IMG/VR virus record: IMGVR_UViG_3300009593_000063
Coordinates: 1-33,638 of that record
Source of the DNA: a virus
Strand: one strand, 5' to 3'
DNA length: 33,638 nt
Shown here piece after piece: positions 5,974 through 9,532 of this stretch (position 1 is its first letter; every line of letters begins with the position of its first letter). Position numbers and translations under genes: made by a program. The notes below the pieces were generated by a model, which ran no database searches, had not been told where the DNA came from, and worked only from the letters and a program-made list of their open reading frames with translations.

Positions 5974-6951
5974 TTAATTCACAACAACTTTAGGTTCTTT
6001 GTTATCCAATATCCAAGTTGCTGCCTTACTCGCTTGAGCAATACACTTAATAAGATACTGGCTGTCATCTTTAATAGCTCTATCCCATGATGCTATGTAT
6101 TTAAGATGATTAGGTTGTGCTTTAGCAATCACACCTAACTCTGTGCATACCATTATACTACACATCTCAGCTATTAATTCTTCTTTAGCTCTGCTCTCTT
6201 TGCATTTGTGGTATGAATCCATATCTCTATTAAGTCTTGATGGGTGGCCTGTAAGATGACCAGCCTCATGGAATATAACAGATAGATACTCTTGAGTAGC
6301 GTCTGATTCTCCATCAATACCAAAGAACTTCCATTCTTCTGGCATTACAATAGTATCAGTACTTGACTTGTAGTATGCAGCACTACCTTGATGCTTAAGT
6401 GTAGCTCCTTGTTTCTTCATGAACTTAGATATTAATTCTTCACAATCTTTATTCATATCAACAGCATTAGCTTTAGATTCATCATTAAAGATAGCATAGT
6501 CATGGTCATTCCATTCTTTATCTTCTTCTTTAGGTGGTACAACTTGGTCGCCATTATAAGCTGGTACTGTTTTCCATCTGTGTACATATTCTTGTCCAGT
6601 TTCTTGATGAATTTTAAAGATAGGTTTTATAATTCCACAATTACTTTTCTCTCCTCGTTTTACCCAGTAACCTTTGTATTTCCATGTATCAAATGTACCC
6701 CAGAATTTAGATTTATATCCATACATTTCAGATACCATACTCATTAACATATTGTTAACTCCTTTGTATCTATTAAGTTTATTATCCTTTGATTCTAAAT
6801 CTATATCATACACTTTGTATTGATCTTCAAAGGTAAGCTGCCATGTTCTTTGCCACTTACCCTCCTCATTACCAGCATCTTTTATTATAGATAAAAACTT
6901 AGAGTTAAATTTTTCTGTGTTAAACTCATACACTTTATTTGTTTTACTCAT
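5974..6951 (-). CDS. ArdC-like anti-restriction protein (N-terminal ssDNA-binding domain plus zincin)
   Basis: 325 residues in two parts. Residues about 10-130 match the ArdC N-terminal domain, with NRYKGVNNMLM (60-70), FWGTFDTW (83-90) and GYWVKRGEK (94-102). Residues about 180-315 form a zincin-type metallopeptidase domain: YYKSSTDTIVMPE (193-205), the zinc motif HEAGH (228-232; H228, E229, H232), then EELIAE (257-262, likely third ligand) and YIASWDRAIKDD (285-296). Plasmid ArdC binds single-stranded DNA and protects entering DNA from restriction, while phage and plasmid relatives are often carried on polyvalent proteins. Here it is a stand-alone early gene, overlapping its upstream neighbour by 8 bases. 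Whether its protease function is active is unknown; the motif is intact. Confidence 0.85.
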   Translation of the reverse strand: MSKTNKVYEFNTEKFNSKFLSIIKDAGNEEGKWQRTWQLTFEDQYKVYDIDLESKDNKLNRYKGVNNMLMSMVSEMYGYKSKFWGTFDTWKYKGYWVKRGEKSNCGIIKPIFKIHQETGQEYVHRWKTVPAYNGDQVVPPKEEDKEWNDHDYAIFNDESKANAVDMNKDCEELISKFMKKQGATLKHQGSAAYYKSSTDTIVMPEEWKFFGIDGESDATQEYLSVIFHEAGHLTGHPSRLNRDMDSYHKCKESRAKEELIAEMCSIMVCTELGVIAKAQPNHLKYIASWDRAIKDDSQYLIKCIAQASKAATWILDNKEPKVVVN

Positions 6952-7135: not shown

Positions 7136-7171
7136 TAGTTTCTCCTTTACTAAAATGTTTCAGCACAATCC

Positions 7172-7186
7172 CTTATACTCACGCAC
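7172..7186 (-). promoter_or_regulatory. GTGCGTG element behind a leftward terminator
   Basis: On the minus strand GTGCGTGAGTATAAGG starts at 7186. It closely resembles GTGCGTGGATAAGG at 346, and both lie just behind a leftward terminator and ahead of a ribosome site. A leftward phage promoter or regulatory box is possible; no -10/-35 pair of host type is evident here. Confidence 0.35.
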
Positions 7187-7196
7187 CTCATCAATT

Positions 7197-7248
7197 AAAA
7201 AAAAATTTTATTCCTAACCCAGAGTAGGTTTATCTACTCCGGGTTAGG
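7197..7248 (-). terminator. Strong Rho-independent terminator, leftward
   Basis: CCTAACCC, a mismatch, GAGTAG (7213-7227) pairs with CTACTC, a mismatch, GGGTTAGG (7234-7248) around a 6-base loop: 14 bp with one mismatch. In leftward direction it is followed by AATAAAA and then nine T residues (A-run at 7197-7205). It closes the transcript of the 326-aa gene and the 37-aa membrane peptide. Confidence 0.85.
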
Positions 7249-7273
7249 TCTACTCTCTCAGTAGTTTGAGATT

Positions 7274-7310
7274 CTATTACTTAAGCCAACGCTTAGTAAA
7301 TGAGTAATAG
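7274..7310. repeat. Inverted repeat over the stop of the 37-aa gene
   Basis: CTATTACT (7274-7281) pairs with AGTAATAG (7303-7310) and, nested, TAAGC (7282-7286) with GCTTA (7291-7295). It covers the last codons and stop of the small membrane gene and lies 26 bases before the terminator hairpin, so the transcript would end in two consecutive hairpins. Confidence 0.55.
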
Positions 7311-7390
7311 AATAATTGTATTAATAAAAGTAATAACCCTACAGCAGAGCTGATTACTAATATAAAGATAAGTAAGTCTAAGTATATCAT
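7277..7390 (-). CDS. Small single-span membrane protein (37 aa)
   Basis: Read by hand: ATG 7390-7388 with AGGAGATAATC ribosome site, stop TAA 7279-7277. MIYLDLLIFILVISSAVG begins an uninterrupted hydrophobic stretch over residues 2-30, ended by the basic YSFTKRWLK. This is one transmembrane helix with a positive C-terminal tail, so the N-terminus probably faces outward. A hairpin with a UUCG loop separates it from the upstream gene and a terminator follows. Unknown family; phage early membrane peptides often act on host cell functions, and a holin-like peptide cannot be excluded. Confidence 0.7.
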   Translation of the reverse strand: MIYLDLLIFILVISSAVGLLLLLIQLFYYSFTKRWLK

Positions 7391-7408
7391 GATTATCTCC
7401 TATGATTT

Positions 7409-7434
7409 GAGGGCTAAGCCGAAGCTCAGCCCTC
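7409..7434 (-). other. UUCG-tetraloop hairpin between two leftward genes
   Basis: In minus-strand RNA GAGGGCUGAGC pairs with GCUUAGCCCUC around a UUCG loop: an 11-bp stem with one G-U pair, closed by C-G as in the extra-stable cUUCGg tetraloop. No T-run follows, so it is not an intrinsic terminator. It lies between the stop of the 326-aa gene and the ribosome site of the 37-aa gene. It could be an mRNA-stabilising or processing element. Confidence 0.75.
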
Positions 7435-7443
7435 GTGGGGAAG

Positions 7444-8424
7444 TTACAGGACTAAAGCAGTTTTAGTTTGGTAAGAATTTGTATTTCTTTTCCAACAAAC
7501 TGCTTCAGCTAATGAAGAAACACCAGTATAAGTTTCACTATTTAATGTTTCAGAGCCAATTAATAACTGATATAAAGCTATTAAAGATGACAGTCTTTCA
7601 AATGATTTTCTTAATCTAAAAGGATTAAGTTCCTTAAAGATTTCTTCATTTGTTTTAAGACCGAAAGCTTGGAACATCATATTAGCTGATATTCTTTCTT
7701 CATCGTTCCATTCACTATATTTATTTCCAGTTCTGTTATCACTAAAGGTATCAATAGTAGTCTTTGATTCTTGGAATTGATTATATAAATTTAAAGCCCA
7801 CTCTCTAGCTTTATCTTTTCCAATACCTTTAAGTGAGGCGACCTTTTCAAGATAATCCAAAGCTTCTTCCTGTTCTTTATCTGCTATATCATTAGCTAAT
7901 TGAACATAAGAATTTGCTTTATCTACATTAAAGCTTGGGATTTCTTTATATGCTTTGCCTCCTTGATTCCATTTAACAGACTTGCTTCCATTCTTATTTG
8001 TTTTGACTACACATCTTGAAGGATGCACATTTATCAAAGCATATTCATGAGCTTCTTGTTTCTTAAATGGCTCCCATTTTCCAGAGTTACTGTTCCAAAA
8101 ATGTTTAGTCAGTCTGTTGATTTGATTCTTGTATTCTTCAACGACATCATCTCTGGTATCTCTGGAAAATTTAGATGTTAGGAAGCTAGTAGCCTGATGA
8201 TATTCTATTACAGTTAAATGACCTTGTTCTTTTTGCCAATTAATCTGTTCTAAATACTCATCTAAGATACCAGAAACAAGATGTGAATCCCTTACTTTAA
8301 TCTCAAGGTCATCATTCTTGACTCCTACAATGTTGTATTCCTCAGGATTAATAAACATTCCTGAGTCCATTTGAGTTATTGTTGTTTTAATCATATCTTC
8401 GTTAGTTCTATTTTCGTTATTCAT
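7444..8424 (-). CDS. Unrecognised protein, first gene of the leftward arm (326 aa)
   Basis: ATG 8424 with AAAGGAG ribosome site, 6 bases before ATG. Soluble, no signal peptide, no membrane segment. Readable segments: EEYNIVGVKNDDLEIKVRDS near the start, FWNSNSGKWEPFKKQEAHEYALINVHPS in the middle, then the helical LEKVASLKGIGKDKAREWALNLY and NPFRLRKSFERLSSLIALYQLL. The KGIGKDKA stretch (about 198-206) resembles a helix-hairpin-helix-like turn but is not sufficient to claim one. As the promoter-proximal gene of the leftward arm it should be expressed first after infection, typical for host takeover proteins. No function assigned. Confidence 0.75.
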   Translation of the reverse strand: MNNENRTNEDMIKTTITQMDSGMFINPEEYNIVGVKNDDLEIKVRDSHLVSGILDEYLEQINWQKEQGHLTVIEYHQATSFLTSKFSRDTRDDVVEEYKNQINRLTKHFWNSNSGKWEPFKKQEAHEYALINVHPSRCVVKTNKNGSKSVKWNQGGKAYKEIPSFNVDKANSYVQLANDIADKEQEEALDYLEKVASLKGIGKDKAREWALNLYNQFQESKTTIDTFSDNRTGNKYSEWNDEERISANMMFQAFGLKTNEEIFKELNPFRLRKSFERLSSLIALYQLLIGSETLNSETYTGVSSLAEAVCWKRNTNSYQTKTALVL

Positions 8425-8467
8425 TTTTATCTCCTTTGTGTTATTGAATAATGTTAATAAAAATTTA

Positions 8468-8514
8468 AAGAATGTCTTTGTCTAAAGACTGAATATCTAC
8501 TTATGTATATTCTT
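8468..8514. repeat. Inverted repeat 1, with alternative pairing
   Basis: GTCTTT (8474-8479) pairs with AAAGAC (8484-8489) across a 4-base loop. AAGAAT (8468-8473) can pair with ATTCTT (8509-8514), while GAATAT (8491-8496) competes by pairing with ATATTC (8507-8512). Confidence 0.5.
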
Positions 8515-8557
8515 CTCTAAATCTACCCTCCACCCAATAGAAGTTGTGGATTAAAAA

Positions 8558-8649
8558 TCAATAGACATTAACATAAATCTAAATAGACTCTACAATCACA
8601 CCGCTCTATAGGGGGGATTGTAGAATAGATTTATTTTCATGTCTATTGA
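8558..8649. repeat. Inverted repeat 2: 92-base nested hairpin, 29 paired bases
   Basis: Three collinear perfect arms: TCAATAGACAT (8558-8568) with ATGTCTATTGA (8639-8649); ATAAATCTA (8573-8581) with TAGATTTAT (8626-8634); TCTACAATC (8589-8597) with GATTGTAGA (8616-8624). They are separated by small internal loops, with an 18-base apical loop that contains five Gs (8611-8615) and then the paired G8616. Confidence 0.85.
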
Positions 8650-8656
8650 CAAGGAT

Positions 8657-8680
8657 TAGAAGCCAACAATTTGGCTTCTA
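8657..8680. repeat. Inverted repeat 3: perfect 10-bp hairpin
   Basis: TAGAAGCCAA (8657-8666) and TTGGCTTCTA (8671-8680) with loop CAAT. No T-run on either side, so not an intrinsic terminator. Confidence 0.8.
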
Positions 8681-8781
8681 CGAAACCCCAGAATTATTAT
8701 TTCTGCGTGCATAGCGAGAGCCACTAAGAAATAAAATTATGGTGGTGTAGTCCGACTGTTCTTATCGTTTCAGCCATATCG

Positions 8782-8859
8782 AAAAAATTACATGGATGCG
8801 TCAGAGCAAAGATGTTTTTTAGATACCTCTAAAAAACAACAATCCATGTAATGTTTTTT
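8782..8859. repeat. Inverted repeat 4: long two-stage hairpin
   Basis: Outer stem: six A residues plus TTACATGGAT (8782-8797) with ATCCATGTAAT, one bulged G, then six T residues (8842-8859). Inner stem: GTTTTTTAGA (8814-8823) with TCTAAAAAAC (8828-8837), loop TACC. Unpaired material lies mainly on the 5' side (8798-8813). Confidence 0.85.
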
Positions 8860-8906
8860 GGGCGACTCTATCTCGAAAAGGACATTTTTAAGACCAACTT
8901 CTATCT

Positions 8907-8946
8907 AGCTATGCTTATCTTTGCACTTGCAAAGCTTAGCTTAGCT
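8907..8946. repeat. Inverted repeat 5
   Basis: CTTTGC (8919-8924) with GCAAAG (8929-8934), loop ACTT, inside AGCTA (8907-8911) with TAGCT (8942-8946) and GCT with AGC; a small internal loop separates the parts. Confidence 0.6.
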
Positions 8947-8974
8947 AATGCCGGGTAGATTGATGAGAGAAAGT

Positions 8975-9070
8975 GTAAATGGTGCCGACAGAAAGCATTT
9001 TCATGTATTATAGTAGTGGAACACTACGCATATGAAAATACTACTATACAATGTCGATAGCATCATTTAC
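8975..9070. repeat. Inverted repeat 6: 96-base hairpin with a competing fold
   Basis: GTAAATGGTGC (8975-8985) with GCATCATTTAC (9060-9070), one pair being G-U only in plus-strand RNA; CGACA (8986-8990) with TGTCG (9052-9056); ATTTTCAT (8997-9004) with ATGAAAAT (9032-9039); GTAGTG (9013-9018) with CACTAC (9022-9027), loop GAA. TAGTAGT (9011-9017) can instead pair with ACTACTA (9040-9046). Confidence 0.8.
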
Positions 9071-9080
9071 TCTATACTGT

Positions 9081-9096
9081 ATCGGTGTCCACCGAT
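9081..9096. repeat. Inverted repeat 7: short hairpin
   Basis: ATCGGT (9081-9086) and ACCGAT (9091-9096) with loop GTCC, 14 bases before the first DnaA box. Confidence 0.55.
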
Positions 9097-9109
9097 TTAA
9101 TTGAATGTA

Positions 9110-9118
9110 TGTGTATAA
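9110..9118 (-). promoter_or_regulatory. Perfect DnaA box 1 (TTATACACA on minus strand)
   Basis: TGTGTATAA on the plus strand equals TTATACACA, a full match to the DnaA box consensus TTATNCACA. It ends 5 bases before the -35 element of the rightward promoter. Same orientation as box 2, 34 bases away. Confidence 0.6.
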
Positions 9119-9123
9119 CTGTA

Positions 9124-9153
9124 TTGACATAAAACGAATCAGTTGTGTATAAT
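9124..9153 (+). promoter_or_regulatory. Consensus sigma70-type promoter for the structural arm
   Basis: TTGACA (9124-9129), 18-base spacer, TATAAT (9148-9153): both hexamers are perfect consensus. Transcription would start near 9160, leaving a leader of about 10 bases with the GAGG ribosome site of the small terminase gene. It means the rightward arm can be read by host RNA polymerase. The -10 overlaps a DnaA box, so occupation of that box should block the promoter. Confidence 0.85.
9144..9152 (-). promoter_or_regulatory. Perfect DnaA box 2, overlapping the -10 element
   Basis: A second TGTGTATAA on the plus strand (TTATACACA on minus). It shares five bases with TATAAT of the promoter. Part of the match is therefore explained by the -10 hexamer, but the TGTG before it is not. 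Confidence 0.55.
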
Positions 9154-9169
9154 CTATATAGAGGTATAA

Positions 9170-9532
9170 ATGAAAACTGCACTAACAAGTAAACAACAGA
9201 ATTTTGTCCTTAACTTTATAAGTACTGGTGGAAACGCTACTGAATCAGCCAAAATGGCAGGATATAGCGAAAAGACAGCCTCAGTTCAGGGTAGTCAACT
9301 CCTTAAGTTACCCCATATACAGCAAGAGCTGATTCGATTAACAAGTGAGCAGTTTTCTATATCCGCAGTACAGGCACTAGGTAAGATCATAAGTCTAAGT
9401 GATTCAGCTAAGTCAGAGTATGTTCAGTTAGAAGCTTCTAAGGATATATTAGATAGAGCTGGATTTAAACCACCAGACAAAGCAATCAATGTTCTTGCTG
9501 GTGATGTGAAGATAAGTATAGACTTGGACTAG
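9170..9532 (+). CDS. terS: Terminase small subunit
   Basis: 120 residues, ATG 9170 with GAGG ribosome site. The N-terminal helix-turn-helix region LTSKQQNFVLNFISTGGNATESAKMAGYS (segments at residues 5-33) is the hallmark of the terminase_2 family: K.Q.FV..Y...GNAT.AA..AGYS. Next come KTASVQGSQLLKLPHIQQEL and a helical oligomerisation part. The protein recognises the packaging site on phage DNA and feeds it to the large terminase. It is the first gene of the rightward arm, behind the consensus promoter; the large subunit follows two small genes later. Confidence 0.88.
   Translation: MKTALTSKQQNFVLNFISTGGNATESAKMAGYSEKTASVQGSQLLKLPHIQQELIRLTSEQFSISAVQALGKIISLSDSAKSEYVQLEASKDILDRAGFKPPDKAINVLAGDVKISIDLD

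Follow-up and report, generated by a model that had tools for sequence, protein, structure and literature searches.

The stretch of DNA analysed here, called the window, is an IMG/VR virus record of 33,638 nt, and its positions 8468-9096 very probably encode a structured RNA. Selection on the pairing, a preference for one strand and a structured sequence at the same position in relatives are directly supported by our comparisons. On the ORF map the large genes all run leftward to the left of about 8425 and all rightward to the right of 9170, and the 745-base gap between these opposing blocks is the sole divergent control region of the genome. The nearest cultured phage is the Pelagibacter phage EXVC031P Hodr (on HTCC1062), with 67% identity in the terminase, so that the window presumably belongs to a Hodr-like podovirus infecting SAR11. 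The sequence-only reading that drew attention to the region had stated that no gene explains it, and we agree: it lies between divergent ORFs, interrupts no gene, and shows among relatives indels of 1-2 nt which argue against a coding function.

Folded as RNA, the + strand of the region has a minimum free energy (MFE) of -204 kcal/mol (z -12.0 against shuffles) and the - strand one of -198 kcal/mol (z -9.4); overall the stability gained over shuffles amounts to 72-75 kcal/mol for the 629 bases, with z of -10 to -12. Among 48 tiled windows of 629 nt covering the genome, the excess over shuffles averages -8.6 kcal/mol (sd 12.4) against -75 kcal/mol at 8468, and the best tile without overlap of the region reaches -30 kcal/mol. 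The other gaps between genes are unstructured or weakly structured, with the exception of 7136-7443, which holds an intrinsic terminator.

Inverted repeats had been reported across nearly all of 630 bases; they are real, correctly placed, and fill 8474-9096, and the signal exceeds what had been described. Their description as consecutive hairpins has to be corrected: since P1 and P2 enclose about 430 and 330 nt, the layout goes beyond serial hairpins and is multi-branched. In the MFE fold, a hairpin at the 5' end is followed by domain I, which P1 and P2 close and which bears the arms P3-P6; then come another long arm and the end hairpin. The flanking ORFs and the elements of the predicted RNA are the following:

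7444-8424, - strand: flanking ORF on the left, 326 aa
9170-9532, + strand: flanking ORF on the right, terS side
8468-9097, + strand preferred: predicted large structured RNA, about 630 nt long with approximate ends (fold z -12, genome outlier, compensatory changes, strand preference)
8474-8489, + strand: 5' hairpin GTCTTT-GTCT-AAAGAC, invariant in the window, L084, L003 and L178
8513-8528, + strand: 5' arm of P1, which pairs with 8953-8969 and closes domain I; paired in 4 of 4 variants
8953-8969, + strand: 3' arm of P1, partner of 8513-8528
8537-8557, + strand: 5' arm of P2, which reaches over more than 300 nt to its partner 8885-8904; in L003 both arms are different sequences that still pair
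8885-8904, + strand: 3' arm of P2, assessed by duplex energies with 8537-8557
8558-8649, + strand: P3, a long branched hairpin with compensatory pairs in L084, L003 and L178
8650-8758, + strand: P4, the most conserved arm, with a TAGAAGCCAA/TTGGCTTCTA hairpin and a TTATTTCT/AGAAATAA stem, from five homologues
8757-8884, + strand: P5, a long arm; an unrelated larger arm stands instead in variant B
8906-8947, + strand: P6 hairpin; a different hairpin stands instead in L003
8975-9070, + strand: domain II, a long arm; an unrelated arm stands instead in variant B
9081-9096, + strand: end hairpin ATCGGT-GTCC-ACCGAT without T-run; variant B has a new stem and keeps the GTCC (GUCC) loop

The 5' hairpin gains no covariation support, because its pairs never vary; it may instead be a DNA dyad overlapping the possible leftward promoter described below.

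Relatives were gathered through the terminase and through DNA patterns. Only four variants carry the window-type RNA: the window itself, two whole-region homologues, L003 (85% identical) and L084, and variant B, a composite of two contigs joined by overlap, L178 for the 5' part and L005 for the 3' part. L084, L003 and B all keep the architecture of the window. Covariation among relatives had been suggested as a check, and compensatory pairs are indeed found. RNAalifold yields 191 consensus pairs for the window, L084 and L003, 21 of which display a both-sided change that preserves the pair; in P1 of L003 one C-G pair has become U-A through changes in both arms. For P3 and P4, with the structure fixed and four sequences only, the covariation score is 0.119 against 0.055 +/- 0.015 for shuffles, none of the 500 shuffles reaching it, and on each measure of this count the four variants exceed all 500 shuffles. 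Moreover 96.8% of the P3/P4 cells are paired in the four variants, a proportion that drops to 35-46% when the partners are slid by 1-3 columns.

The clearest evidence for kept folding is the wholesale replacement of arms with pairing maintained. In L003 both 21-nt arms of P2 are replaced, with the roughly 300 bases between them nearly unchanged; the duplex is worth -17.2 kcal/mol within the window and -19.9 kcal/mol within L003, against -5.2 and -4.2 kcal/mol when the arms are crossed between the two. Variant B (MFE -268, z -16.9) has the same core as the window and two large arms replaced: its P5 and domain II are unrelated to those of the window and still fold, the domain II duplex reaching -38.5 kcal/mol. 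What is kept is the core, that is the closing helices P1 and P2 and the arms P3, P4 and P6; what is exchanged is P5, domain II, the P6 hairpin and the stem of the end hairpin. A long-range structure is maintained here by compensatory change, as expected of a large structured phage noncoding RNA, and together with the bias towards one strand and the persistence of pairing in exchanged arms, this makes the large structured non-coding RNA proposed at the outset a supported reading.

The RNA most likely runs with terS, i.e. on the + strand, since energies, consensus folds and wobble pairs favour this direction. In each of the four variants the + strand is the more stable one, by 7-30 kcal/mol, and one-sided changes in P3 (A-U to G.U, C-G to U.G) leave a wobble on the + strand where the - strand would have a mismatch (A.C). 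Over 18 family alignments, the + strand has the better consensus energy in 14, and there are 242 wobble-type one-sided changes on it against 175 on the - strand. The excess over shuffles is larger on the + strand in 23 of 33 relatives, a modest majority; families II, IIb and VIII fold better on the - strand.

The same position is also structured in more distant relatives. Among 42 of them, with mutually dissimilar upstream DNA, the 300-nt windows upstream of terS lie on average -13.6 kcal/mol beyond shuffles, against -2.2 kcal/mol for downstream coding windows, and 27% of the former against 0% of the latter have z below -4 (Mann-Whitney p 4e-15); the controls being all coding, this contrast may partly be one between coding and non-coding DNA, and small ORFs or the first left gene fall within some of the upstream windows. 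In Hodr the gap of 337 nt is structured (z -5.0 and -5.2), and compensatory pairs recur within the families of other relatives. A covariance model of the P4 arm (CM R1), run on 59 sources, matched in the close contig group only, so that what the distant relatives have in common is a likeness of place and foldedness rather than a shown homology. MEP301 was considered as a second cultured relative and dropped, its terS lying inside a one-directional gene run which is not comparable. Most relatives keep at this spot unrelated sequences that are folded to the same degree, a pattern which points to a novel class of large phage RNA with rapid turnover.

Two other patterns were seen upstream of terS. 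In L088, L046, L089, L090, L085 and L086, a larger hairpin of about 160 nt encloses a conserved GCCGTGTTG-hairpin-CTGCCCGCACCCARACA, and the outer helix of this larger hairpin covers the Shine-Dalgarno of a small ORF on the + strand, as well as the start codon of that ORF in L088 and L046; the pattern occurs in 12 contigs, two of them (L170, L175) apparent chance matches and the rest in the L088-type group. In L032, L027, L038 and L036, different hairpins have a common loop GCGTCTATC(A/G)GC, as if one module had been copied.

How the RNA would act depends largely on the transcription signals around it, of which three can be listed:

9124-9153, + strand: sigma-70-type terS promoter TTGACA-N18-TATAAT, 12/12 to consensus, just 3' of the RNA
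8456-8484, - strand: possible weak leftward promoter TAGACA-N16-TTTTAT, picked by eye and not among the promoter-scan matches
8447-8452, + strand: possible -10 box AATAAT for the RNA, with no good -35, in a block conserved in four relatives

We lean towards an element acting in trans as its own, stand-alone noncoding RNA, because the terS promoter sits 3' of the RNA and the weak leftward candidate on its other side; this is somewhat the better supported view of its action. Against it stand the narrow sequence family and the absence of a convincing promoter at the 5' end and of a terminator at the 3' end: the promoter scan, in the window and in relatives, gave no consistent match before the 5' end, and the 3' end has no T-run. 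No intrinsic terminator (GC-rich stem followed by a T-run) was found in 8400-9200, which bears out the initial remark that the repeats are not a terminator cluster.

The main alternative, which we consider unlikely, is a cis-acting leader of a flanking operon. On the + strand it would belong to a late transcript initiated upstream and running into terS, with a role in antitermination, stability or processing; on the - strand it would lead the left operon and hide its Shine-Dalgarno. It is true that nothing terminates transcription between the RNA and terS, and that the genome has no other divergent control region. Further, in Hodr, family II and family III the complement of the Shine-Dalgarno of the left gene forms part of the outer helix (in Hodr the outermost long helix, where it pairs with a GGAGG copy), which suggests cis control in those three cases. 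In the window, however, the Shine-Dalgarno of the left gene lies outside the fold, the possible leftward promoter is placed to the left of most of the RNA, and a leftward leader runs against the + strand preference. As to the rightward version, the perfect terS promoter is situated beyond the 3' end of the RNA, so that the terS operon can do without the RNA as a leader; an equivalent TTGACA is found 37-111 nt before terS in many relatives.

Outside the region, on the - strand at about 7194-7247, a strong intrinsic terminator (15-bp GC-rich stem, then AATAAAATTTTTTTTT) comes after the left gene and an ORF of about 37 aa, hydrophobic, so that the left gene looks like a short self-contained operon. 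Relatives have - strand terminators as well, L153 among them and many others at a similar distance; that of L153 follows the first left gene, and so we rejected these as ends of a - strand RNA.

A function of the repeats as DNA, either as a pac or cos site beside terS or as a replication origin, seems to us quite improbable. In lambda-like phages the cos site adjoins terS; the GC skew changes sign at the locus; and two TTATACACA sites resembling DnaA boxes (9110-9118 and 9144-9152) stand in the same orientation 34 bases apart, the second overlapping the -10 box of terS. But the skew switch follows gene direction, and DnaA-type boxes are at chance level in the window genome (3 found against 2.8 expected) and mostly absent in relatives, for which reasons we rejected an origin with DnaA boxes. 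Local cruciforms, which had been proposed together with an origin, are unsupported because the P1 and P2 partners lie more than 300 nt apart; they would leave the compensation between these arms unexplained, as a DNA element would the wobble pairs favouring one strand. Finally, sites bound by TerS should be conserved with terS, yet between L005 and the window, whose TerS is 99% shared, about half of the 8468-9096 region is different. Weakest is the view that no RNA is selected and that template switching in phage replication creates the inverted repeats and keeps them matched: such repair is known to make quasi-palindromes perfect, one arm could be copied into the other in this way, and turnover at the locus is fast. 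But in L003 one mismatch and a 2-nt indel separate the two P2 arms from perfect complementarity, over a distance of more than 300 nt, which speaks against fresh copies; strand-biased wobble changes would not be expected; and many dissimilar relatives are structured at this one position. Together these points make the view very improbable.

The element does not fall into a known RNA family. Rfam at the gathering threshold gave no match for the window and 20 relatives, and a permissive search of the region with E-values up to 10 matched no GOLLD, ROOL, pRNA or intron model; GOLLD had been offered at first as a comparison only. Group I and group II introns were rejected, the covariance models being unmatched and the region intergenic. 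DNA similarity searches returned short chance matches only in phage records and none in plasmid records, and the P4-arm pattern was not found in bacterial and archaeal genomes. The literature on pelagiphages, terminase-linked noncoding RNA and large phage RNAs gave no description of the element, which is weak evidence as subscription coverage was incomplete; a SAR11 phage transcriptome paper, on other phages, mentions no noncoding or intergenic RNA.

Comparison with known large RNAs is nevertheless instructive. The closest in type are GOLLD and ROOL, branched phage RNAs of large size whose function is unknown and which are often encoded close to tRNA islands; GOLLD RNAs, many of them over 800 nt, are multi-branched and phage-encoded, with conserved and less conserved parts, and their level increases in the course of phage lysis and they assemble into a multimeric nanocage (PMC12286853). 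The RNA of the window resembles GOLLD in being a large, multi-branched phage RNA with one part conserved and another less so; it differs by its divergent locus next to terS and by the interleaving of core and replaced arms, whereas these parts lie 3' and 5' in GOLLD. With ROOL it has in common to be large, branched and phage-encoded, but it has neither an Rfam match nor a tRNA island. Since the models are unmatched and no tRNA gene occurs in the 33.6-kb window, we do not file it as GOLLD or ROOL. In size (about 600 nt) and ornateness it recalls OLE, an RNA of Gram-positive extremophiles with protein partners (PMC9723947), from which the lack of an Rfam match separates it. The pRNA of phi29 is likewise a podovirus RNA, tied to packaging, and the RNA of the window adjoins terS; however the pRNA covariance model is unmatched. 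The phi29 pRNA is also far smaller.

Under the stand-alone reading, the sole divergent control locus would encode a multi-branched RNA of about 630 nt, in the direction of terS and made during infection as a transcript of its own. The core could serve as a scaffold, and the arms would present loops to a partner, which might be an RNA, a protein or further copies of the RNA. Such a partner would change quickly, and the exchange of arms would mirror this change. More tentatively still, a clade of mostly marine podoviruses might reserve its divergent locus for lineage-specific large RNAs, folded on the terS strand and without recognisable homology even where TerL is 87-95% identical; these would form a fast-evolving class defined by structure, plausibly through an arms race with an RNA-directed factor of the host.

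Very few large phage RNAs (over 500 nt) are known, our literature search giving GOLLD and ROOL, both with open functions. The present case would add another one, now in a genome type infecting SAR11 relatives, at a defined locus and with evidence of selection on folding; the relatives seem each to meet the same task with a different RNA. As Hodr is cultured and has a structured locus, expression and deletion tests are possible, and if arm exchange reflects a changing partner, the locus amounts to a natural screen for the binding partners of large phage RNAs.

Some observations concern the neighbouring genes. Neither Pfam nor PHROG gave a match for the 326-aa left protein, and its gene was met only in the contigs carrying the RNA (the window, L003, L178 and, by DNA, L084), so that gene and RNA may travel as a cassette. 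The first codons of this gene in L084 contain an in-frame 15-nt insertion resembling a local duplication (GTTAGTTACATTTTCA region), which is not in the window, L003 or L178. The locus tags of the Hodr (EXVC031P) record OQ414635.1 bear another phage name, EXVC032PBaldr. Further left in the window, 5974-6951 encodes an ArdC-type anti-restriction protein, with an ArdC N-terminal domain and a zincin-like metallopeptidase.
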